A DNA stretch of 64,000 nucleotides from Cheilinus undulatus (lineage: Eukaryota; Chordata; Actinopteri; Labriformes; Labridae): positions 41,404,551 to 41,468,550 of the forward strand of contig NC_054872.1 of the NCBI RefSeq assembly GCF_018320785.1, in the 5' to 3' direction. The notes beneath the pieces are model-generated. The model saw only the letters and a program-made list of their open reading frames with translations. It had not been told where the DNA came from and did not search any database. Position 1 is the first letter of the stretch; each line of letters starts with the position of its first letter. Both the position numbers and the translations under genes were made by a program. Shown here in pieces: positions 3,613-64,000 of the stretch.

Positions 3613-3738
3613 AAATGTGATGATAAACTTAAAAGGACACATGGCATTTGTTGTTTGTGAAACCATATCCAGTTTGTGAAATTACTATGGTGCCCAAGCC
3701 TCTCCCCTTAAAGCTCCACCCCCAAATGCTCCTCCTAC

Positions 3739-4079
3739 CTGGCTTTGAGCTCCATGTGCTCCTCCCTGAGCTTGCTCAGCTCCAGCTGTAGCCGTGCTCG
3801 CTCCTTGGCCACTTGGTCCAGGGTCTTGCGTGCGTCGGCTAGCTCTGCCTCATAGGTCGCCTTGATGCCAGACAAGTCACGGGTAACCAGGGACTCAGAC
3901 TCTGTGATGCGGAGTCTCAGGCCGGCATTCTCAGCCTCCAAGGAGCGCACCTTATCGATGTAAACAGCCAGACGGTCATTGAGGTTGGACAGGTCCTCTT
4001 TCTCCTGCAGCCTGGTGATACGGGCTGGGGAGACGCCGGCGGCACCTCGGCTGGTGCGTTTCTGGCTTGGGGTTTCCAT
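3739..4079 (-). CDS. lmna: Lamin A/C, coding exon 1 (partial gene)
   Basis: This exon encodes the first 113 residues plus two bases of a nuclear A-type lamin, the intermediate-filament protein of the nuclear lamina. The protein opens METPSQKR, the A-type lamin signature. A short head follows, carrying Ser17-Pro18, equivalent to the mitotic CDK1 site Ser22 of human lamin A. Coil 1A comes next ([21 protein letters not shown], about residues 20–70), then the linker and the start of coil 1B ending [15 protein letters not shown]. The ATG at 4077–4079 has a strong context (A at -3, G at +4). The donor AG|GTAGG after 3739 sits where human LMNA exon 1 ends (phase 2). The head is about five residues shorter than in human, as I recall that sequence. 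Exon 2 was not found in 1–3738, so intron 1 runs off the left edge. B-type lamins are a less likely alternative because of the METPSQ start and the synteny. Confidence 0.96.
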
Positions 4080-38000: not shown

Positions 38001-38246
38001 AAATAGGTTACTGAATAAGTAAGCTAATGCTGAGGTGCTGGACACCTCATAAATCACTGCAATTACTTTGTATCCTTTGCTAGGGAAACATGCTGCATAA
38101 ATCTGAATTTACACTGAACAAAGGAGAGTCGAGGATCCTGTTTGCTCAGGATGATGACACTTGTAGATGTTCCACTCGATTTGTGATTCACAAGATTCTA
38201 CTGATCATGTTTACTTATTTTGAAATGTTTGTTGGTGTCTCTGCAG
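35064..38246 (+). other. mex3a: mex3a intron 1 (3,183 bp)
   Basis: GT at 35064 and CTGCAG at 38241–38246 bound the single coding intron. It includes a GA-rich microsatellite at 35384–35410 and, from 35430 to about 36960, relatively GC-rich non-repetitive sequence that may be regulatory. No other exon is apparent. Confidence 0.85.
35384..35410. repeat. GA microsatellite
   Basis: (GA)n run with few interruptions, within the mex3a intron. Confidence 0.85.
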
Positions 38247-39403
38247 GATGCAAGATCAAAGCCCTGCGGGCTAAGACCAACACCTACATCAAAACCCCTG
38301 TCAGAGGAGAGGAGCCGGTGTTCTTAATCACTGGCCGGAAGGAGGATGTTGCACTGGCCCGGCGTGAAATCATCTCTGCTGCAGAGCACTTCTCCATGCT
38401 CAGAGCATCCCGCAACAAGCTAGGAGTGTCCTTTAGTGGCTCCCCGCCCACGCCTTTGCCTGGTCAGACTACCATTCAGGTGAGAGTGCCATACCGTGTC
38501 GTGGGGCTCGTCGTGGGGCCCAAAGGCTCAACCATCAAACGCATCCAGCAGCAAACCTGTACTTACATCGTCACCCCTAGTCGAGACCGCGACCCCGTCT
38601 TCGAGATCACAGGGTCACCAAGCAACGCAGAGAGGGCCCGCGAGGAGATAGAAGCACACATCGCCTTCCGAACAGGAGGCCTGCACGACCACAATAATGA
38701 AAACGACTGTCTGGGGCCAAATGGTGGAAGCAGCCCAGCGGGCAGCAGCGGTGGTTTGGAGAGCCGACTACAGCAGGTGTGGGGGCTGCAGGGGGGCCAG
38801 CGCAAGCCCCTCACTAGCAGCTACCGCCAGAACTTCTCAGATACCATGGTTGGAGGGGGAGGGGGAGGAGGAGGTGAGGGAGGGGGCATCTATACCAAGA
38901 GCAACTTCTCCAGCAGCTCTGGAGAGAAGCCTTGCTCTTATTTTGGATCAGATGGTACCCAGAGCTGGGGCGACCCCGACTACCCCAAACAGGTGGCCTT
39001 CTATGCCCAGCAGCGCTCTAAGAGCTTTGGAGGCCTCCCTCTGCCCCTGACCAGACTCTCCCCTGGCTTACCTGAGCCCTGTGGAGGCGGAGGAACCAAC
39101 AACTCTTCAGTCACCAGCATTGTGCCCGTATCCGGTTCACCTCATGCCCAGGCTCGCCGCGCCCACAGTGAGCCCACCTCAGCCGGTGAGGGTTTCCCAG
39201 GCCGTCTGCCAGTGCCGGACTCACCGCCGGCCACTGTGCGGGACTGCATGACCTGCTTTGAAAGCAAAGTGACGGCTGCCTTGGTGCCCTGTGGCCATAA
39301 CCTCTTCTGCATGGAGTGTGCCATCCGAATCTGTGAGCTCAACCACCCGGAGTGCCCAGTGTGCCACACCCAGGTCACACAGGCCATCCGAATATTCTCT
39401 TAA
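38247..39403 (+). CDS. mex3a: Mex-3 RNA-binding protein A, exon 2 (KH domains and RING)
   Basis: This exon completes Mex3A at 525 residues, close to the human protein's length. KH1 (about 126–190) contains [22 protein letters not shown]2 (about 214–283) contains [20 protein letters not shown], with its GPKG loop at 231–234. A low-complexity linker holds a glycine run encoded by a G-rich tract at 38851–38888. The C-terminal RING (474–513) has the full C3HC4 set: Cys474, Cys477, Cys489, His491, Cys495, Cys498, Cys510 and Cys513. It is followed by the invariant ending QAIRIFS. The open frame extends upstream into the intron to 38090, but the CTGCAG acceptor and the seamless joining of GRQ-G-CKIK fix the start at 38247. 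MEX3B/C/D are excluded mainly by the exon 1 start and the lmna synteny. Confidence 0.96.
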
Positions 39404-49007: not shown

Positions 49008-49147
49008 TCAGTTGTTCTGGCAGCAGACACCCTTACTGGCTGAGTTTTGGGTTGGCTCAACTGTGATCGGCACTACGTTGGAGGCTGGTGAGAAGTCTGA
49101 GTCGTTTCTCCCTGACATCTGCCTCTGTGACACGATGTTGTAGATGG
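49008..49147 (-). CDS. rab11al: Rab11-type small GTPase, exon 5 (C-terminal hypervariable region)
   Basis: Encodes residues 171 (split) to 216: IYNIVSQRQMSGRNDSDFSP, then ASNVVPITVEPTQNSASKGV and CCQNN. The dicysteine Cys212-Cys213 is the geranylgeranylation site that anchors the Rab to recycling-endosome membranes. Human RAB11A/B end CCQNI/CCQNL; here the last residue is Asn. The NNVV/SNVV-PI block is typical of Rab11 and differs from Rab25. The acceptor is CATCACAG before 49147; the stop TGA is at 49008–49010. Confidence 0.93.
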
Positions 49148-50773
49148 CTGTGATGGAGAGAAGGGTGAAAGGGAATGAGTTATGTGTAGATGCCTTTAAA
49201 TCTAGCCAACAGAGGGACATATTGTGATAAGGACAAACAGCATGGCAACATTGAACAACAACTGTTCTATCCAGACTCCTGGCAGCAGTGAAGGATTCTT
49301 TCCATCCTAAACTGGCATCGGTATGTCATGTGGTGGTACCAAGTCTCATTTTAGGCATTCCCCCAATGTAATGAGATGAAATATATTTTAGATTTAAATC
49401 AGAACACCTTACTTATTTACCCAGTATGTTCATGATTAAAAGCCAAAAACACAGAGACACAAACTTTAGCTCACAAACTTGTTTTGTTTCTCTTTATCCT
49501 ACATATTTCTTTTTTAATCTGTTTATTCCATTAAGTTGGTGAGTTCATAAACTTGAGGAAGGAGAGAGGAGGACTAGTGCAAACACTCTACTGGTTTACT
49601 GTTGCATACTGCTGCTTTAACTCTAAACTACAGCCAGATGTGGAAGAAAACAGCCCTGAAATAAAACTGCCTATTAAGCAAGAAGGTTTAAAGCAAAACA
49701 AGACTCCTGGCTGACTGTGACGTGACACGTCAGGTGGTAAAACCATGACTCATTTCTAAGAACTCTACACAGCACAGCTGCTGAGCCCATATAGACAATG
49801 ATCCATCAGGATGACCCTCTCTGACCCACGATCTGTCTGCTGCCGATATCTACACACGTGGCATCTTCCCTGCTTCACTGAGTCTATAGCTGGATGGCTA
49901 ATGTGCTGTGAACTTCCTCTATTCTCCTCCCTTAATGAGCTAATTAGCATCATTAGCTCAATGGGGCTTGTTGGTTTGAAGTTTTTATGAATTAGAAATT
50001 ACAGACAAAGCTGTGGTTTGGGCAGGATGGCTCAAACAGCTCAAGCAGAGGCGCCTGAGTATTGAACATGAAGCACAAGTAGAAAACAAACACGGGTGGC
50101 ACACACTCACACACTGATAGCCCCTGGAGCAATTGAAGTGGAAGCACCACTCACTGTTGAACTGTCCCTTTAAGCACTCCAGGGGTTGACTCAGTCACAA
50201 TGATTGCTACCAAATCTCCAACATCAGATCTCCTTGTTAGCTTAGCTGTACGCTCCCCAGGGACATCACTCATGGACATTTACAAAGGAAATAATATCTG
50301 TGAACCACCATCAGAATTTCTTTCCTGAACAGATATATTTGGTTCAGTAGGTCAAATCATACTTGTTAAATAAATGAAGACCAATTCTGACTGATATTTG
50401 CAGTGACTCTCACTAAAAATTGACCAACTGGCTGTGTTGTTTTTCAGTGTGCCCATTACCTATATTTTTGACCTTTAAAAAACATTCAAGTGGTCTTACC
50501 TAAGACTGCATGTAAGTGATGGACAAGGAGAACCAATAGGGTGGATTTTGCTGCCATCTAGTGGCAGCTAAAGAGTGCTGTTATGTAAACCAAAGTCTTG
50601 ATGAAAATATAAGGCTTTCAGACAAATCAATATATAGTATGAATCAAGAAATACCATAAACCAGCTTCAGAGGTTTAGGAATGCTGCACTCCAGCATCAA
50701 AAGCACTTCTATGAATGAATCAATATAAACAGTAAAAGTGAGGGCAAAAGACAAACTCAAATGTGAAACTCAC
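49148..50773 (-). other. rab11al: Rab11-type gene intron 4
   Basis: Intron of 1,626 bp, bounded by GTGAG (minus strand, before 50774) and CACAG. It contains a 9-bp palindrome with homeodomain TAAT cores (TGAGCTAAT / ATTAGCTCA, 49936–49960) and a strong CTCF-like palindrome at 50550–50567. No other gene seen. Confidence 0.8.
50550..50567. promoter_or_regulatory. CTCF-like palindromic motif in intron 4
   Basis: GCTGCCATCTAGTGGCAG; the minus strand reads CTGCCACTAGATGGCAGC, matching the CTCF core CCASYAGRKGGCRS at every position. The two arms GCTGCCA/TGGCAGC are inverted, so the site can be read on both strands. Confidence 0.5.
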
Positions 50774-50854
50774 CTGTAAGAATAGTTTGGAAAGCCAGCT
50801 CCACATTACAAGAGTCTAACGCTGACGTCTCCAGGAAAGACAAGCCATGCTTTT
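50774..50854 (-). CDS. rab11al: Rab11-type small GTPase, exon 4
   Basis: This 81-base exon encodes residues 144 (split)–171: [20 protein letters not shown] then FQTILT. ETSAL (152–156) is the G5 guanine-binding motif. Acceptor TTCACAG before 50854; donor ACAG|GTGAG after 50774. It is too short to show up as a long frame but joins exactly, by frame and homology, between exons 3 and 5. Its length and phase are identical to the rab25-like exon at 62397–62477. Confidence 0.92.
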
Positions 50855-51083
50855 CTGTGAACAACATGCACATAATGACACAATCAGTTAAACGGCTGCA
50901 TTACTTTTACTTTTATAACAACATTATGGGATTGATATTAAGAGTTAACATTGTACAATCTCATAAAATGCAACAATACTAACACACATCTAAGATTATA
51001 CTTGGTTTAAAATAAAATCTGATGTAATATAAAATATTCTGGTGGTTCATGGTCATTCAATTTAAAGAAATGATATTCCTGGG

Positions 51084-51245
51084 GCACAGAAGGCCATGTG
51101 GTTAGGTTGCACCCAATATACCCAGGCAGCCAAGATTCAAGTCAAGCCTGTGGCTCCTTTCCAGCATATCTCTCCCCCAATCTCTGATCCCTGTTTCTGA
51201 CTCTATACACTGTCCTCCTCTGTCAATAAAGGCATAAAAAGCCCT
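51084..51245 (+). repeat. tRNA-derived SINE (D), nearly complete
   Basis: Head GGCCATGTGGTTAGGTTGCA, B-box relic AAGATTCAAGTC, body GGCTCCTTTCCAGCATATCT, and tail CAATAAAGGCATAAAAAGCC. It is inserted antisense to the host gene. The best copy of the family that also occurs at 19.8, 28.1 and 56.4 kb. Confidence 0.7.
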
Positions 51246-51259
51246 CAAATATATTGTAT

Positions 51260-51282
51260 AATATATATATATATATATATTT
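51260..51282. repeat. AT dinucleotide repeat
   Basis: (AT)n run just after the SINE tail, probably grown from it. Confidence 0.85.
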
Positions 51283-54200
51283 ATTCCTGTATTGTGTGTA
51301 TTGGTAAAGAAATGATGAATCCATTTGAGGTATTTAACTGATCAGGTCCTGTTCGCAACCAAATGAAATACAACTTTACTTAGAAGAAATAACTAAATAT
51401 ATCAGGTTTGACTGTAAATATATTTGGGATAACAGGCACAAATCTCAACAAAATACCAGGATTGACATCTTCCAATTGGTTAATTGGCTGGTCGAAGAGC
51501 TCTGATCCGGCCAAGATCTCCAGAAACAACACGTTTTCAACTCGACACAAAGATGCAGGATGTTTGTATTGAAGTGGTGCTGCGAGTGGCTCTGCTCTGC
51601 CATCATGGCCTACTCCAGCAGCCTGTTTAATTCCACGGTCTCCTGATCATAACGCCCCAACCTGAGGACTTTTTTTTTTACTTCACCTCAGTAAATAGAT
51701 GCTGTCTGAATGTAAATGACAGTGTGGGCAGGAACAAGTGATCCTTTTAATAGTTTTTCATTATAAATGAATACAAAAACAATTATCTGAGGGCATTTTG
51801 TTGGCTATATTCTCTAAATAGTTACTCTGCTGTGATCATGGAAATCATGAGTATAGGCAGGTGCACACTGATCATCTCTGGATCAATTGTTATTTCAGTA
51901 CAACATAATGAGTCAATTAATAAATAATGCTTAAAGAGCTTGTTTTGTTCGTTCAGAAAACCAGAAGGGTGCAATAATGAGCCTATCTAAGATTAAGCTG
52001 ATGTTGAGATAAAATAATGCACCTTTTTTGTCTGATTAGTCGTCGTGTAGATGTAATTTCTGTTGACCAAGTTTTTCTTTGGTTGACTACATGCAAAATA
52101 CACATCACTGCTTAAGTGATCTGTTGAAATTTAATACGTAACTTTGAAATACATCTTTGAGTCAGCGATACATAAAAAACAAGAAAAATTCTGGTCACTA
52201 AAATGTGAGTTTTTGCTGCTTTTCCTTGACTAGTTTACTGAATATCATGTGGTTTTAACATTATCTAATTAAACCAAAGATCTGCCGAAGACACCTGGAG
52301 CAGCAACAAAGAGTAACTGACATTTTTATGTGGTTTTTGACACTGTATATACAAGGAAATATACTGAGGGAAGGATCTGATGATGTCTTATTCAAAAGAA
52401 GGAAAAATGATGAGAATAAGCAAAGAATACGGTAATCCTGAATTCATCAGTAATATAATATATAATAAACTACTTCTGGAAGCCTTATCTTAAGATTTCT
52501 TCTTTTTCTTTGTTCCCTCACAATTCCTATCACATGCTCTGGGAAGACCATGAAGTACATAAGAACTTTGAACTTTAATAAAATATAATATCAATTAAGA
52601 CCTCCTGGGCACCCAAAACTGGTTAAATTCGTTATTTGTGCTCCAAAAAAACATTCTCTTTTCCCTGCTCTCTATCCATCCACAACAGACACTAAAATTA
52701 ACATGAAACTCAAAATTAGAAGCTTAATGAACTTCCAAAACTAATTTGACGACTAATTACTGAGCCATTAGTGAGGTAGTGGCTGTGATGCTGTGTAACA
52801 TTCAGAAAATAGGATCTTATTTCTCTATATCACAGTTTGTTTGCCACTAGTAGTGCTCCACCATTCTTTTTAATCATAATTCTGATCCCCCACCACTGTG
52901 CTCTTTTCCTGCTCACTGCAGCTTTGGGTTGAAAATAAGACTGTATGTTTGTTTTGTCTATCATAATTTTGATACTTTTCAGTACTATGATAATAAAAGT
53001 TGAGGATATTGTATCATGCTAAGTATATGGTATAGATTAAATTTAATAAAATATTAACTGCATGTATGAGGAAATAACTATCACACAGATGTGTAAATAC
53101 AACATCAGATTGGTCTACCATTTCTGGGTTATTGTTTGAGAGAAACACTTTACTCATGAAATTACAAAACTTTGCATAGACATGCCACTCACATGGTCTT
53201 TATGTAAATTAGGCAACTTGAGTATGGTCAACCCCACCCCAAAGCATGAGCTGGTAAAAGTGTTATTTATCCTGCAAAGAAGATTACGTGCTTTAGACTA
53301 ATATGGATCAAGGAGACTCATGTATCTGACTTTCACACTTGCAGTCCAATCAAGAGTCATTTACTAGTCGAAGCAGGTACAACACTGATTCAGGCACAAG
53401 CCAATAAACTCAAGGTCAGGAATAAACACACGGGGCAACCACTCTGAAATAATAGGAATGTCAAAAGGTTGACAATTACACTTTATTTTTCGTGAGGTTC
53501 TGCAGGCTGCTAGTAAAAATCTAACCTGCTCTGAAACAAAGCCTTGAAATTCTCAGAGGGTCGATATAAATGGAAGTTTAATTTATTTAAATGGAGTCCT
53601 TTTGAACTTGTGCTGTGCTTTCTTACATGTAGCCAAGGACACATGCAGCTGTTGGACACATAAAAAAGAAAAAATGCCTAAAAGTATCACAGTGCAAACA
53701 CTTCTAACAAGGGTGTTGCCAGAAGGAATGGGAGAACAAGGCTTTAAAAAGGAACAGCACATAATAAACTGAAAGAAAGTTGATGACACCAGCAAGAATT
53801 TGACTCACGTGATAAGATATAAAGTACCTGAAGATCTAATTAATACAATTTGGGGTAGGCGATTGGCCTATTATCCCAGCTTTAAGAGCAGTTTGTTCTC
53901 TCAATCCAATTTTACAGTAACTGCAGCCAGCTAAAGAAATAAACTTCTCAATATGAATACTGTAATATCCATAAGAAAATTAAGGGAGATATTTGAGTTC
54001 ACCTTTTCTTGGAAATGTGCAGATAGTACTTGCATGTTTTAGGGTGTGTCACATTCATATGTGGGAACGTCATTTTTATTTCCTTTGCACTTTTGTTTTG
54101 GAGGGTTATTTGAAAACAAGCCAATGCAGAGACTAGAAACCAAAGAATCAAGGAAGGGTGTAGTTCTTTTGGGCCACCATCTATGTTAAATAACCCCACA

Positions 54201-54335
54201 GGTGACCAGATTATCAACAGATAGTTCAATTAAATAAAGTTAAAAATTCTCCCAAATTCCTCTTTAACTTTGCAATATTCTAATCAATTTGAGTATTTGA
54301 CCATCACAGGCTAACACTGACTTCTTGTGCTTCTA

Positions 54336-55426
<1,091 letters not shown>

Positions 55427-56223
55427 TTAATAAGAGAAGAATCATCATCAGCACAGTCATACAGTACAGTGTGGAGCCTACCTGCAGAGTTCTTTGTTTT
55501 TTAAATTCTTTTAACTAATCGGTACAGGGCAAAAAACTGCCCTTCTTCACTGCAGCGGCAAATCCATGGTATGTATAACACTTATTCATCCGTGAAGGAG
55601 TTATATTAAACAAGATGAGCTGATTTTTAAATCAAATTTGTTTCTCATTTTATTTGACAGCCTGCTTCACAGATGAAGCACACATTTGGCTCCCAGCCGA
55701 GTAAGAGCAGAAATTCAGGGGACTCCCACTGTGTATACAAAATATTAGAACCACCTGCTCTTTTCAGGAAATACAGGCAAACTGAGAACATTAATCAAGT
55801 TTAAAAGTAATGATTCGTTACAGATTGCTATGTCAAATGTACTCTGAATAAAAACAAATCTAGATTAAAAATAATAAATGGATATTTTCTCTCCTTGAAA
55901 AATGGAGACAAAGATATCTCATCCTGTATGCTTAAAACTCTTTGTTAAAGGATGTTGTGCTTTTGAAAAAGGCTGCACGAAGTCTAAAAAAAAATCAAGC
56001 AAAATTTCTTTCTAATACCCGCCTTCTTAAGTTCTGTGAACATTTGCATATAATTGATTCTGGTGTTGAGGGACACTTTTAGATTGAAGTTTTGTACTTT
56101 TCCCTTACAGATGACAAATCATTTTGAGTAGGCATTGATTGTACATGGGGAAACAATTCATTCAGAGACAAAAGCACAGAAATGCAAAGGCCCAAACCAA
56201 GTCCTGGAACAGATCTGCTGATG

Positions 56224-56750
56224 TAGTTCCCAAACATTTTCTGCCAGCCCCCCCTCCCCGGTATATAAAATCTCATAAAGGTTGGCTGTTGCTAAAGGAA
56301 GGTGTGTGGCTCTCCTTATTACCCATATTTTTTAGATATGTTGTTAGGCCTTTTATGCCTTTATTTTATTTATTTATTTATTTATTGAAAGGAGTACAGT
56401 TGATAGAGTCAGAAATAGGAATGACAGAGTGAGGGTGAGACACTCTGGGCCACTTGTGTACATGGGGTGCAACCTAACTGCAAGGCCCTCAGCGCCCCCC
56501 ATATTTTTATTCTTATGGAGGAAACAAAAGGCAAGATTTGACTTGTCATATTTTCTTGTCTATGTTACGGTCATCATGACGTCAGGTGTGGACTCAATGG
56601 TAGCCCTAAAGTTTTCTTGGAAGTCCTTTCACAAAAATGTACATGCTTTTGCAGTGCAAAACAGCCAATTGTTCTGTGGCCTTGTCAAGCCTCCCCTATC
56701 ACAGCTTCAGGCATCTCATAGGCCACAGGCTCCCCTTTAGGAACCACTAT
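56224..56750. mobile_element. hAT-type miniature element carrying a SINE
   Basis: The left end TAGTTCCCAAACATTTTCTG and the right end TTAGGAACCACTA are decayed inverted repeats of the fish hAT family that begins TAGTGGTTCCCAAAC. A SINE is inserted at about 56355–56495. Confidence 0.5.
56355..56495 (-). repeat. tRNA-derived SINE (E), antisense, with ATTT tail
   Basis: The minus strand reads TTGCAGTTAGGTTGCACCCC, then CACTCTGTCATTCCTATTTC and CTGACTCTATCAACTGTACT, ending in a (TAAA)n tail (56361–56387). Same family as 51084–51245. Confidence 0.6.
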
Positions 56751-57199
56751 GAAGACTAGCTACCTTTATATTAATTACTATAAAAATATATCATATGAGA
56801 GCAATAATATAACCTTGAGGTAAATTTTTATTTTCAACTCCTTCCCTATTTTTGTGTCACAAATTTCTTCTTAATTGTAAACAACAACGAGCACATAAAA
56901 GAAGTAGCATTGGACAGTTATACACATACTGCCTGCTACATCTGAAGGTCTCAGAAAATAAGTCTTTGTCAACAGCAGCATTGGGTTTTGAGAAAGTCTT
57001 TGAAACCTGGCTAAAAACACTTTTGTTGTTAGAGCCACCATTCAAAACTTCCAAAACAGAACCTAAATATTTATAATCCAACATCCCAAATGATAACCTA
57101 ACATAGAAAAAGGACTTCTTTTGGTTCTTACGTTAACATTTGAAAAATTTGCACTGACAAGGGCCAGAGGGGTATATTACTACATTTAATGCCCCAGGA

Positions 57200-58043
57200 C
57201 AGGGGTGTCAAACTCAAGGCCCAGGGCCCAAATCCGGCCTGTGGTACAGTTACATCCGGCCTGCAAGATCATATCATATTTCTATTATAACTGGCCCACC
57301 AGTATGAGGTCTGCAGATTTCCTCCAGAATAAAAATGTAAACCTAACCTTGATGATTTAAAATATCCTCAAGTCATGAAAACCTGAAACAGAGTAAAAAT
57401 ATTATTATAAAAAGTCAAGAAAGTAGGGAAAAATGATTTATTTGTGTGTTCATGTCATATTTGTAATTTTGGATCTCAAAATTATAACTGAAACTTAGTA
57501 TTTTGACTTTTTATTTTATACTTTGACCCTTTCAGCTCATAATTTTGATATTTTATATCATATTGTGACCTTTTAGATACACATTTTTAAATTTTGAGTC
57601 ATTAACCTTTAGACTCATTATTTTTAGTTTTAAGTCATATTTTGACCTTTCAACTCTTAACTTCAGCTTTTCAGTCCCATAATTTGACCATTTAGACTTA
57701 CAATTTGAAATTTCAACTTATAGTTTGACCTTTTAAATTCATGATTTTGACTTTCTCATATATTTGCATTTCTTAAAACATCATTTTGCTATTTTAGTTT
57801 TGTGTTTTTTAACCCTTGAACTAATAAGGCTGACTTTTTATCACAAATTTTGAGCCTTTAAACTTATCATTTTGACTTTTTATTTCAAAGTGATTTATAA
57901 TCAATACTAAGTGTTTTAAAATTTGTTTATTTCTGGCGAAAAAGAGGTTGACAGTTTAAGGTCCAATTTTAACCCTCTCAGGCTCTCAAGTTAGACTTAA
58001 ATCCAGAATCTGACCCCTGGTGTGATTGAGTTTCACACCCCTG
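57200..58043. mobile_element. hAT-type miniature element (844 bp) with perfect 8-bp target duplication
   Basis: The terminal repeats CAGGGGTGTCAAACTCAA (left) and TTGAGTTTCACACCCCTG (right) are inverted over 18 bp with one mismatch. The flanking octamers CCCCAGGA (57192–57199 and 58044–58051) are identical. The interior (57460–57900) is a degenerate array of CTCATAATTTTGACTTTTTA-like units with no transposase. Confidence 0.92.
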
Positions 58044-59326
58044 CCCCAGGATGTCAGTGCCAGTGTGGTATAAACAATGAAAAAGAGGCTTTTAAGCTGT
58101 TTCTCCTTTACTGGATCTTGTCCAAAACTGAAATTTAACAGCCAGTATTAGAGTGAGTGTTACTTCCACAATTATCAGGTGAGTCAGTCCGACAAAAGGA
58201 ACCAACCCCAGCTACTCACCACCCTGCGATTAGGAAATAGGAACTTGTAAAGGAATGTTGAAATTGCATTAACGAATGGACCACTGTGTCTACACTCACA
58301 CACAAGCAATGCAATTCATTCTTGGAGGAAACTGTGTTAATGTTTGTCAGTGTTTCTATGGTGTAACAGACACAGGTAGAAACCGGTTCCCCTAAATCAC
58401 AACTTCTCTCTGTAGAATATGAATTAATACCAAAAAAGGAAAACCTATTGGGTGTACATATCCCAAAAGTAAAAGTATGACTCCACAATGCATCTAAAAC
58501 AGCATCAATGTCATTCTCCACTTTGTCTGACACAAAAGATCTTGGGCGGAGGACAAAAATCATTATGCAACCGTTTTCAGGTGCTCTGCCATCAGACAGG
58601 TATTATCATGGCTTCATTACACACCCATTCACTAGGCCTTTTGTTCAGTTTGCATTCTTCAGCTAAAAAGATATGACACCTTTCTATTACATTGGAAAAA
58701 CCTGCACCCAGCGAGGGACGAAAAGAAAAAACAGCCAGTCTGATAGTCTCTGTAAATGGAATAAAAGATCTGCAAAGGACATCCAATTTCAGTATTTCTA
58801 TTCACGTTATAAATTAAAGCAGTTATAGTGCAGGGTACGAATAGCACTTTAATATAAGAGGAAAACTACTATTTATTAAATATTACAATTGAAAATTTTG
58901 CATAAAGAGCAAAGTATGTTTTTTTTTTTCTAAAAAATGCCCAGCAATTATATTTATTCACATCTTTAAAATGACAATGATGGGTAAAAAGACAGCTTGA
59001 GCAGGAAAGCAGGTTGACTCCCTGCATTGCTGTATCCTTCAGTAGGGAAAGGTTTATATGACTCACTAAAAGCTCACCCAACTTGACTCATGCTATTCCA
59101 GCAGCCAGGGACAAAGGGAGGCTGTAGGGAACAAAGAAAAACTACAACTGCACCCTGGCTCTTTCCTGGTTTGAGAAAGACTGAATGGCAGCCATTGCCT
59201 TATCAGTGTCCTTGCACTGCTGCAAATGATTCAGAAAGACTGCAATAATCATTTTATCAGAAAGGGAGTGAGAAAATCTTGCCGTCCCTGTGCTCAGTGA
59301 CAGAGCTTCTCTGTGACAGCACACAA

Positions 59327-59346
59327 ACACACACACACACACACAC
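59327..59346. repeat. CA microsatellite
   Basis: (CA)n, about ten units, in intron 1 of the Rab11-type gene. Confidence 0.9.
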
Positions 59347-60206
59347 TTCATGCAGGTATTTCCAGTTTGACAACACATGCCTGTTTAGTGTTCTATATTT
59401 GAACAGACCATAGGCACTTTATTTCCCCTTGTTTATGACTAGGTAAAAGTATGAAAAGCTGTTTTAAAGAGATAGCCATATGGGAACAAGCATCTTTGCC
59501 CCTTTGCAAGATAGTATTATGAATATTTGTATTAATTTTTTTTTTTTACCAGATGACAAAAGTTGGGAATACAATACAAATCTATGATCATCAGAGATGC
59601 TCTGACATAAAAAAAAAGCCATTCACTTTCATGATCTAATTTCAAGGCTTCAGGTGATGAATGCAAAGATTAATTGTTAGCTTTAATGATGGTTCCTCCA
59701 AGTGAAAAGACCTGTAATTGCATTCAAACTACAAACAGGTGTTTTCCAGTAAACCATAATGTCCTAAGGTAAAAATCTAAGAGCCAAACCCTTTCATTTT
59801 TTTCAGATATTTAGATAGAGAACTGTTTTGATTCTTCATCCTCCCACAGTTTATGACCCCAGCACGGCATCATGAGATGATTGCATCATAGGCCTGCATG
59901 ATGATGACTCCACCGCAGATGCTACCTGGCGATACATGAAGGTCCTTACCAGTAATATTGCAACCCCGAAAGCAGGCACGTCTATCAAAGCATGTCATAA
60001 CTTCTGTCTCAACTTGAAACAGACAAAGTTAGCTCCTGCTTACAGCAGGTGTCTTTGTCTCCGAGTCTGATAAACGTCGTCTTATAGACCTTGTTGTCAG
60101 GCATGCGGGGGTCAACATCTCGGCATCAAATGACACTTGCTCACAGGTGTAACAAGGCTTGGTGTCGACCTGTAGCCAGCTAGCTTGAAGGTAAAAAGCG
60201 ACTCAC

Positions 60207-60246
60207 CTTTAAAAAGATAGTCATATTCATCTTCTCTGTTCGTCAT
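60207..60246 (-). CDS. rab11al: Rab11-type small GTPase, exon 1 (start)
   Basis: A 40-base exon encodes MTNREDEYDYLFK plus one base. DEYDYLFK is shared with RAB11A/B (MGTRDDEYDYLFK), and the donor AAAG|GTGAGT after 60207 joins in phase to GTG (Val14) of exon 2. The complete coding sequence is 40+196+194+81+140 = 651 bases, 216 residues plus stop, which is the length of human RAB11A. The gene is a full, apparently functional Rab11-class GTPase. I use rab11al because the protein is Rab11A-like but sits at the RAB25 locus. The exact name (rab11al, rab11a or another paralogue) needs a tree. Confidence 0.9.
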
Positions 60247-60249
60247 AGC

Positions 60250-60670
60250 TGCTGTTCTTCGATGTCTCTACGTATTTACTCGAAGTCGAACAAACTTCTG
60301 GTACTTGGAGACCGTCAGACAACCGTTAATAACAGCAGCCTCACGCAAACAACGGTTGATTTACACTCAAATGGCAACAACGCCGAATAACTGTCAAAGT
60401 AATACAATTTTACACTGATGTTATCAAGCATAAAAAATCCTACAGCAGCTACAAGCTTAAAAAAAGTTTCGCCTCGTCTTCCTCACCCTCTGTCACTTGC
60501 CATTACCGAGGCTGCGACGTAACGTCAGTGTCATTGTCCCGCCCCCTGTTCACTCCTAATGGTCAATGGCTGATCGACACCTGTCACGAGCGTTGACGTG
60601 ATTGGCTCACTGAGCTGTCGTTCATGGTTTAACCGCTGGCCGTTGACGTGTATGACGTCTGCAGTTCCAA
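60250..60670 (-). promoter_or_regulatory. rab11al: Promoter of the Rab11-type gene, cluster of CRE-like sites
   Basis: A CpG-richer stretch upstream of the ATG. CRE/ATF-type TGACGT cores occur in GACGTAACGTCA (60516–60527, two facing half-sites) and in TGACGTG (60594–60600), where ATTGG, a CCAAT box on the minus strand, follows at 60601–60605. More lie in 60644–60650 and 60653–60660. A GC box CCCGCCCCC lies at about 60538–60546. No TATA box on the minus strand was seen. The transcription start is probably within 60300–60500. Confidence 0.6.
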
Positions 60671-61234
60671 GCCTCAACAGGTAGTATATCAAGGCTGAGG
60701 TTTACCAGCAGAAGCAGAGCCCAGCAGGCACTGATATCAGAATTATCACATTGCTACAAGTGTTACTGCAGCCACAAAGCAGCTACAGAAAATCGCATTA
60801 CGGAGCATTTATTCCTCTAGGAAGACCCAAGTAATTAGAAGAGAAATACTTTGTTCTTAAAGAAGTCCCGTGCTGCAGCGTAGACTTTTTTCCTCATTTT
60901 TTTCTGTTTCCTGCGTTCTGTTCTCCTATGCATAATACATTTTATTGCATATAGGCTGCTTTACACTGCCACTGCTGATGGATATAGAGTGCAGAGTGTG
61001 ATCTTGCAAATCCACCTTCCCAAATAAGATATTTTTCCTCATGATGTGCCTTTGAAATAAAGGTTGATTTAGCATAAAAGCTTGAGAATGAGCTTTATCA
61101 AACATATTTTGGCTAAAAATGGCTTTATAATCTAAAAATAAACTTAAACAAGCCCACATGTATTTATTGTATTGTAATGTGACATGCTCTGGTTAAAATT
61201 AATTTGTTTCAAAACATAAAATGACACATTTTGA
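60671..61234. other. Short intergenic spacer between the two Rab genes
   Basis: Less than 1 kb separates the promoter of the Rab11-type gene from the inferred 3' end of the rab25-like gene. AT-rich in its right half; no gene or repeat recognised. Confidence 0.5.
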
Positions 61235-61725
61235 GATCAGCTTTGTTCATTTTTATTGTCATTTAACATCAGAAATGAAATCAGACTCTCTTTACATCAT
61301 CAGCTGGAGTACAAGCACATTAAGACTCCTAATATGTTCATACATTTTGCTCCCAATCTGATTAAAAACATTATAAAGTCATGTATCATTTACATTTTTA
61401 CTCCAATTTGTTGCATAGATTATAAATACATTACCACAGCACAGCTAATTGTATTTGACCTATGTTTAATAGTGAATATTAACAATTTGATGTTGGTCTG
61501 CAGATACATTCATTCACATATATTAATCCTCTTCTTAACACAACACCAGCATGCAATTTGTACAACCCGTTTATCAGTCTTTTCAAAGTGGCATCACTTT
61601 AGCCAGCTCAGGACTGTTATTATTGGCACTCAGTATTGCCATGTAGCCCCTATTTGGGCCCTAAGCATTGCAGGTTAAGGAGTTCAGCCACCCTGAGGTC
61701 CGTGGTCAGTTGAAGGTCCGTGGCA
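61235..61725 (-). other. rab25: 3'UTR of the rab25-like gene
   Basis: From the TGA at 61726–61728 to about 20 bases past AATAAA at 61257–61252 (minus strand). The 140-codon plus-strand frame across this stretch is antisense and shows no protein-like features. Confidence 0.5.
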
Positions 61726-61838
61726 TCAGATGTTTCTGCAGCAGGGCCTCCTGTCCTCTGTGTTTTCTGCTCCGCTGTTGTTCAAAGACACAGCACTGAT
61801 TGAGCTGGTTTGCTTACTGCCCCCTTTCTTGCGAATCT
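61726..61838 (-). CDS. rab25: Rab25-like small GTPase, last exon (partial gene)
   Basis: The 113-base exon encodes, after the split Glu, IRKKGGSKQTSSISAVSLNN then SGAENTEDRRPCCRNI and TGA. A C-terminal CC pair for prenylation is present. The hypervariable tail differs from Rab11 (no SQKQ or NNVVPI block), and its SISAVSLN segment resembles fish Rab25 as I remember it. The acceptor TACCACAG lies before 61838. Rab25 is an epithelial Rab11-family member acting in apical recycling. Assignment to Rab25 rather than another Rab11 copy is by tail and synteny. Confidence 0.75.
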
Positions 61839-62396
61839 CTGTGGTAGAAAATTAACATAAATTAAACATTGACATTATGCTACAAGAAAGGAAACCAGGC
61901 ATTCACAAATATCCAAACTACTCACCTCCTCCCTGCATAAAAGTCAGCTGAAAATAAATGCATATGCTAAATTGCTCAATTCAAAGCAAAACTGAACAGA
62001 AAAGTTTCTGCCAAAAGCAGTCAATCAAAAGGCTGCTTTGGGACCAAAGGGTCACTTTTCTGACCTTTTCTAGATAGAAACTTTTTGCAAACCTCTATGA
62101 GCTGGGAAGATGAAAGCTGGCTATGTGAGGTTAAAGTCAGGGTCATATGGGTGGAGCCTAGCACTGCATGCTTATGGGAAATGTGTGTATCCGGCTCATA
62201 TCGTTCATATGTCTTTAGAGGGGAAGAAAGGGAAGGAAGGAGGGGTTTCAGATACACACAGAAAGCTCTAAGGAATTCCATCTTGGCATTGTGGTATAAC
62301 AATTGTACATTACTCAAAAGGAATATGTTCCTTTTTATTGCTGCAGATCTGAAACAGTGTTTTTTAAACAAAAGGAGAAAAGCTCAATCCATTTAC
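61839..62396 (-). other. rab25: rab25-like intron (558 bp)
   Basis: Bounded by GTAAAT after 62397 and ACCACAG before 61838. No repeat recognised. Confidence 0.75.
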
Positions 62397-62477
62397 CTGC
62401 AAGGACATTGTTGAATGCTGCCTCCACATTGGTCGATGCCAAAGCCGAGGTCTCCAGAAACAAAAGACCATTCTTTT
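62397..62477 (-). CDS. rab25: Rab25-like small GTPase, penultimate exon (partial gene)
   Basis: The 81-base exon encodes KNGLLFLETSALASTNVEAA then FNNVLA, with both end codons split. ETSAL is the G5 guanine-binding motif. The residue after it is Ala, where Rab11 and human Rab25 have Asp. The acceptor TCATTTAG lies before 62477; donor GCAG|GTAAAT after 62397. Earlier exons (P-loop, switches, NKxD) are not in 62478–64000, so the gene continues past the right edge of the window. Confidence 0.82.
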
Positions 62478-63690: not shown

Positions 63691-64000
63691 CCACAGAAAA
63701 GGTCTGGGCCCCTGAAAATCCTAGAAAATGGGCCCTCCCCAGTTGTGATTTAGCGCCAGTATTAACCCCTTTTTGTTACTTTTTGTCCCTTTCTGCCTCT
63801 TTAACCCATTTTTTGACATTCTTTAACATCTTTTGAACCACTTTTCCAGCATGTTTTATTCCCTTCATGTCACTCTTTTATCAATTTTTGCCACTTTTTA
63901 ACCCCTTTTCATTACTTTTTGCATTATTTCTGCCACTTTTAAACCAATTTTTGCCACGTTTCACCCATTTGGCCACTCTTTAACCCCCTTTTTTTTTGCA
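63690..64000. repeat. Composite dispersed repeat, copy 3 (runs off the edge)
   Basis: CCCCTGAAAATCCTAGAAAA then TGGGCCCTCCCCAGTTGTGA matches the start of copies 1 and 2. It is followed by a degenerate TTTTTGCCACTTTTTAACCC array that continues past the right edge. Confidence 0.7.

Follow-up and report, generated by a model that had tools for sequence, protein, structure and literature searches.

In humans, RAB11A lies at 15q22.31, RAB11B at 19p13.2 and RAB25 at 1q22 (PMC7823896 table 1), and Rab25 has been classed as a vertebrate paralogue, with Rab11C given as a possible name (PMC3425129, in excerpt). The genes listed for the human 1q22 interval are ARHGEF2, RXFP4, LAMTOR2, SSR2, RAB25, UBQLN4, MEX3A, LMNA, SLC25A44, PMF1 and SEMA4A (PMC4276019, in excerpt). 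In catfish, lamtor2, mex3a, rab11al, rab25b, rpz4, rpz5 and ubqln4 lie no more than 150 kb from a single marker (PMC11760490 table 2), and a zebrafish Rab11 survey, as excerpted, took in rab11a, rab11ba and rab11bb only (PMC6936149). Here we analyse a 64,000-nucleotide stretch of the Cheilinus undulatus genome (the window; C8:41404551-41468550, where C8 is contig NC_054872.1), in which a complete Rab11-type gene, the left gene, stands head-to-tail with a Rab25 gene, the right gene, beside mex3a and lmna. Genome-wide searches covered the window's own genome (1,173 Mb, 46 contigs). Both genes are already annotated in other fish, and the find itself is not new. Their position bears on where Rab25 came from: we think it probable that the left gene, rab11al, is the ohnologue of RAB11A and RAB11B that belongs to the 1q22 block and disappeared in humans, and that Rab25 is its tandem copy.

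The Rab11-type gene and rab25b at the lmna–mex3a locus

The left gene lies on the minus strand and comprises five coding exons encoding 216 residues, with all introns bounded by GT..AG. Exon 1 (MTNREDEYDYLFK, 60207..60246, 40 bp) runs from ATG to AAAG and is followed by gtgagt. Exon 2 (55212..55407, 196 bp) carries the P-loop GDSGVGKS, switch I and WDTAGQ, whose Gln is residue 70, exon 3 (54356..54549, 194 bp) the NKCD motif, and exon 4 (50774..50854, 81 bp) the ETSAL motif. Exon 5 (49008..49147, 140 bp) encodes the hypervariable tail and the prenylation end CCQNN with its double cysteine. Gln70, NKxD and ETSAL are thus all intact. An earlier note on this DNA had claimed a complete Rab11-type gene with Gln70 and a CCQNN tail, and the full exon model bears this out.

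Among the best 60 of 128 sequences of solved Rabs, the left protein scores 401 bits against Rab-11A, 362.5 against Rab-11B, 293.7 against plant RABA1a and 260 against Rab-25, and less than 192 bits against Rabs outside the Rab11/Ypt31/RABA group. Its identity to the solved Rab-11A is about 86%. It is 86.5% identical to rab11a of the same genome, 64.1% to rab25b, 85.5% to human Rab11A (214 columns) and 85.4% to human Rab11B, the human Rab11B and Rab25 rows being partial chains. Over residues 1-173 it differs from human Rab11A at 13 positions, none of them in the P-loop or in switches I and II. Against rab11a of the same genome, omega by the method of Nei and Gojobori (NG86) is 0.049 and the synonymous distance (dS) is 2.40, near saturation, and dating by synonymous distance was therefore dropped.

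The left gene is rab11al, because the catfish annotation (channel catfish, we presume) has rab11al and rab25b near mex3a, and its sequence is that of an ordinary working Rab11 GTPase; the identity of both genes of the pair is close to certain. Since the switch sequences are unchanged, the protein is expected to bind FIP effectors and to reside at recycling endosomes. A CpG-rich stretch covers the start of the gene (60200..60699; CpG observed/expected 0.98-1.29 in 200-bp windows), and from this composition the left gene probably has its own promoter. Intron 1 contains a repeat-like block (57192-58046) with a 71% match to a block in intron 2 of rab11a on C1. We considered this match as intron homology and dropped it; the matching blocks lie in different introns, so the block is probably a dispersed repeat.

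The right gene, also on the minus strand, enters the window with exon 5 (61726..61838), which encodes the tail RRPCCRNI, and exon 4 (62397..62477, 81 bp). Exons 3, 2 and 1 lie past the window end at C8:41470009-41470202, 41476652-41476847 and 41490709-41490745. The earlier note had seen a Rab25-like tail here; in the complete model, switch II, read past position 64000, is WDTAGL, with the Leu of Rab25 instead of Gln, the P-loop is GESGVGKS and the end is CCRNI. The same Leu and Glu occur in the solved Rab-25 chain 2oil, which is the top solved match (287.7 bits), with Rab-11A close behind (284.2). These three features identify the right gene as Rab25, not a second full Rab11. It groups with rab25a and human Rab25 at support 100/99 in a 14-row tree and 100/100 in an ingroup-only tree and in a tree with the outgroup L035 (described below). 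Its first residues, MGSDEAY, are those encoded by the zebrafish rab25b primer ATGGGGTCTGATGAGGCCTA (PMC8034978, in excerpt). Intron 1 of rab25b measures 13.9 kb (C8:41476848-41490708) versus 338 bp in rab25a.

The coding gap from the rab25b stop to the left-gene start is 1,479 bp (60247..61725) rather than the less than 1 kb given previously, although transcripts with untranslated ends may lie closer. Within it, in the rab25b sense, AATAAA occurs at 61257, 61168, 60946 and 60813 and ATTAAA at 61470. The locus is marked by lmna exon 1, encoding lamin A/C (3735..4079, minus strand), and by the large coding frame of mex3a with KH domains and RING (38084..39400, plus strand), a Pfam scan having covered three of 128 candidate open reading frames of the window. 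A head-to-tail Rab11-type and Rab25 pair at lmna–mex3a, as the earlier note described it, is therefore what the gene models and landmarks give. The pair sits in a block matching human 1q22 (RAB25-UBQLN4-MEX3A-LMNA), and the earlier note's statement that RAB25 alone occupies the human position agrees with the 11-gene interval list, from which RAB11 is absent (PMC4276019). The catfish linkage, as tabulated in PMC11760490, places the linkage of rab11al, rab25b and mex3a before the divergence of C. undulatus from catfish.

Rab11-family and mex3 genes across the genome

A Ras-family search, in which 150 of 515 candidates were scored, together with a whole-genome tail search, yielded at least seven fully modelled Rab11-family genes, five of Rab11 type and two rab25. 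Besides the pair, these are rab11a (C1:1787321-1808166), rab11b (C13:31426366-31439974), a convergent rab11b pair (C7:35754857-35757212, plus strand, and 35772003-35777414, minus strand) and rab25a (C16:33008723-33011719), the last named by elimination. All seven carry an 81-bp penultimate exon of phase 1/1. The shared size and phases remarked on earlier are thus real, but as a family-wide feature they say nothing about the site of duplication, and we rejected them as evidence for a local one.

The neighbourhood of the left gene is more informative. Searching the genome with the window's mex3a protein gave mex3 genes on C8, C1 (3.28 Mb), C13 (29.45 Mb) and C5 (40.59 Mb), and two weak RING-only matches on C4. 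A Rab11-type gene lies within 2 Mb at three of the four main mex3 loci: rab11a at 1.47 Mb (C1), rab11b at 1.97 Mb (C13) and the left gene at 9.6 kb (C8). No Rab11-type gene was found on C5 and no mex3 gene on C7, the site of the rab11b pair. Were the loci placed at random, at least two of the three other Rab11 loci (C1, C13 and the C7 pair counted as one) would come within 2 Mb of a mex3 gene with a probability of about 3e-4, for a single marker family and a limit chosen after the data were seen. The human genes pair in the same way on 1q, 15q and 19p, with MEX3A at 1q22, MEX3B at 15q25.2, MEX3D at 19p13.3 and MEX3C at 18q21.2 (PMC7432607, in excerpt). Going by this agreement with the human map, we treated the mex3 gene of C1 as mex3b and that of C13 as mex3d; given that assignment, the mex3a and mex3b blocks were separated before the fish–human split, and the separation of the left-gene and rab11a blocks therefore dates to the early-vertebrate doublings rather than to that of teleosts. 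This linkage supports the left gene as an ancestral resident of the block rather than a newcomer.

A search for the lamin tail family gave a single sub-threshold match, on C20, without recovering any lamin gene. It was uninformative, we think since introns split the domain. None of 49 viral contig candidates was confirmed.

The remaining family loci offered several observations of their own. The two C7 rab11b genes lie about 15 kb apart, and their mutual dS is 0.66, versus 1.42 and 1.72 to the C13 rab11b. The medaka Rab-11B accessions XP_004068248 and XP_004068250 are near-consecutive (PMC6936149, in excerpt), and numbers this close hint at the same convergent pair in medaka. Beside rab25a, C16:33005000-33034999 contains no Rab11-type neighbour or relic, and the Rab11-type partner of rab25a seems to have been lost there. 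The 10 kb upstream of rab11a (C1:1773000-1782999) reads mostly as a short-repeat array that is open in several frames. Downstream of rab11a, L054:8247-8585 (minus strand) has frames resembling the MEGF10/11 C-terminus (NPYDLPRNSHIPSHYDLLP); these would fit the human RAB11A–MEGF11 neighbourhood.

Origin of the pair

In the reading we prefer, a single ancestral Rab11 gene would have been spread by the early-vertebrate doublings, rab11al being the copy that stayed in the 1q22 block, a sister of RAB11A (15q) and RAB11B (19p) that disappeared from the human lineage. Rab25 would be a tandem copy of rab11al in which Gln of switch II became Leu, Asp of the P-loop became Glu and the tail changed, and such local descent is a plausible and the simplest account of the adjacency. 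By analogy with the family, rab11al would serve Rab11-type recycling, cycling between GDP and GTP, anchored by its two prenylated cysteines and bringing together recycling endosomes and their FIP and myosin-5 effectors; rab25b would act in the Rab25 manner, in the same role while hydrolysing GTP more slowly. Epithelial control may also be common to the two. In zebrafish, reverse-transcription quantitative PCR of cornea against dermis gave 6.79-fold for rab11al (zgc:63565) and 3.54-fold for rab25, and both were reduced in pax6b mutants (PMC4334901, in excerpt).

A broader proposal, that a third vertebrate Rab11 ohnologue, a "true Rab11C", resides at lmna–mex3a, kept by fish and lost by humans, with Rab25 as its tandem offspring and epithelial expression shared between them, is one we hold tentatively. 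In a literature search of limited reach we met no paper that treats rab11al as an ohnologue in its own right or that places the origin of Rab25 at this locus.

Several results weigh against these readings. In the zebrafish study, 42 of the 71 cornea genes fell in the pax6b mutant, which makes pax6b dependence weak evidence, and "rab25" is given in the excerpt without a or b (PMC4334901). Phylogenies were built with Ypt31/Ypt32, 5ub8 and RABA1a as outgroups, and also with L035, with the ingroup only, without Rab25 and from codons. L035, a nearer eukaryotic outgroup, is the one used of four examined from at least 18 related contigs listed; its eukaryotic-looking Rab11 gene with introns (L035:3889-4561) stands in a contig catalogued as part of a Verrucomicrobiaceae metagenome-assembled genome, where it is probably contamination. 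Grouping of the left gene with rab25 is unsupported in every tree made. The 14-row tree with four outgroups does not resolve the Rab11-type rows, and the 10-row ingroup tree recovers rab11b (98/99) and Rab25 (100/100) and leaves the left gene unresolved beside rab11a; adding L035 places it no better. Codon positions 1+2 of the seven same-genome genes, with no human rows, join the left gene to rab11a at 95/99, and the all-codon tree of the seven genes and the protein trees leave its position open.

Approximately unbiased (AU) tests reject none of the placements tried. The p values were 0.126, 0.501 and 0.607 for the left gene with rab25; 0.486 and 0.581 (the latter in the L035 set) with C1 rab11a; 0.124, 0.158 and 0.185 with the rab11a clade; and 0.145, 0.127 and 0.224 with rab11b. 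Grouping rab11a and rab11b without the left gene gave 0.068 (14-row set, the lowest), 0.504 and 0.498; rab11a with human Rab11A alone, 0.092, 0.128 and 0.41; and all Rab11-type genes together, 0.265 (14-row set) and 0.208 (L035 set). The left gene is nearest rab11a in the codon 1+2 tree, but joining to rab25, rab11a or rab11b is in no case rejected, and the trees leave its placement undecided, leaning to rab11a.

One alternative takes the left gene for a copy of rab11a made within teleosts ("rab11ab"), at the teleost doubling or later, which was relocated beside rab25b and to which Rab25 is unrelated. The published listing of rab11al as a second RAB11A orthologue under that name (PMC12434753, in excerpt) agrees with it, as do the codon 1+2 tree and the retention of left plus C1 rab11a by the AU test. 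The left gene also shares V60, L151 and S187 with same-genome rab11a and not with human Rab11A, three residues against one the other way (P197), although V60 and L151 are also present in some Rab25. At residues 166-167 (QT) and 181 (M), the left gene, rab11a and L035 agree and rab11b differs, so part of the likeness to rab11a may, judging from these few sites, be old states lost by rab11b. Unique changes in left versus rab11a number 7:1, 4:1 and 3:1 with three outgroups and 2:3 with RABA1a; the left gene is therefore the faster against three of four outgroups, and its speed could hide a nested position. The neighbourhood speaks the other way, with the left gene in the mex3a block and C1 rab11a in a different, mex3b-type block of early-vertebrate age, and a relocated copy could have come to stand next to rab25b only by chance. 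The distances of the left gene from human Rab11A and from human Rab11B are, moreover, nearly the same. Two smad MH2 genes, presumably smad3 and smad6, lie close together on C1 (53.09 and 53.20 Mb) and on C9 (22.57 and 22.63 Mb), which suggests, weakly since they are 51 Mb from rab11a, that C9 and not C8 is the teleost sister of C1. On this neighbourhood, with sequence undecided, the left gene is likely the 1q22-block ohnologue, and we regard a moved rab11a copy as unlikely.

Less likely still, in our estimate, is a tandem Rab11–Rab25 pair that predates the vertebrate doublings, the blocks of rab11a and rab11b having since lost their Rab25; the left gene would remain the 1q22-block ohnologue in that case too. 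It would suit the unrejected grouping of all Rab11-type genes with Rab25 outside, the very long Rab25 branch (0.81 changes per column in the 14-row tree, 1.16 in the L035 tree) and the reported Rab25 in the choanoflagellate Monosiga (PMC3192815, in excerpt), by which Rab25 would predate vertebrates and which counts against a vertebrate origin at this locus. Such a branch can, however, come from speed alone, and the stretches read around rab11a and rab11b (C1:1773000-1818999, C13:31424000-31442999 and C7:35728000-35797999) yielded no remnant of Rab25, both rab25 proteins matching only known Rab11 exons there (E up to 0.01). The earlier claim that Rab25 arose here by tandem duplication is partly supported. 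The pair is real, while local origin is plausible and an older pair with later losses fits equally. Its companion, that fish keep the unmodified Rab11 copy, agrees with the intact gene and its ancestral-resident neighbourhood and receives no decision from the trees.

If descent of Rab25 from rab11al holds, the origin of RAB25 gains a concrete local parent gene, and the assignment of rab11al as a rab11a duplicate would be corrected, which bears on zebrafish RAB11A disease models that count rab11al as redundancy (PMC12434753, in excerpt). Rab25, a GTPase of epithelia that is of interest in cancer, would alone have remained at the human locus, with fish keeping parent and daughter, a natural tandem Gln/Leu pair for studying the divergence of Rab25 from Rab11.

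Comparison with described Rab11 and Rab25 genes

The closest described counterparts of the left gene are zebrafish and catfish rab11al (ENSDARG00000014340, zgc:63565 in zebrafish). The proteins are similar, the zebrafish one being 84% identical to human RAB11A (PMC12434753, in excerpt) and the present one 85.5%, and catfish rab11al has the same neighbours, mex3a and rab25b (PMC11760490 table 2); orthology rests on these neighbours and on percent identity. Zebrafish rab11al has been published as a RAB11A duplicate (PMC12434753), whereas the neighbourhood described here argues for a separate ohnologue. The right gene resembles zebrafish rab25b in its MGSDEAY start (PMC8034978) and human RAB25 in its switch II Leu, its GESGVGKS P-loop and a block matching 1q22. 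The human RAB25 locus differs in that its 1q22 list contains no Rab11-type gene (PMC4276019). Like human RAB11A and RAB11B, the left gene has Gln70, an identical P-loop and identical switches, and five coding exons (PMC7823896 table 1), and it shares the CC prenylation end of Rab11A. The human genes lie on 15q and 19p, not at 1q22, and the left gene has a tail of its own.

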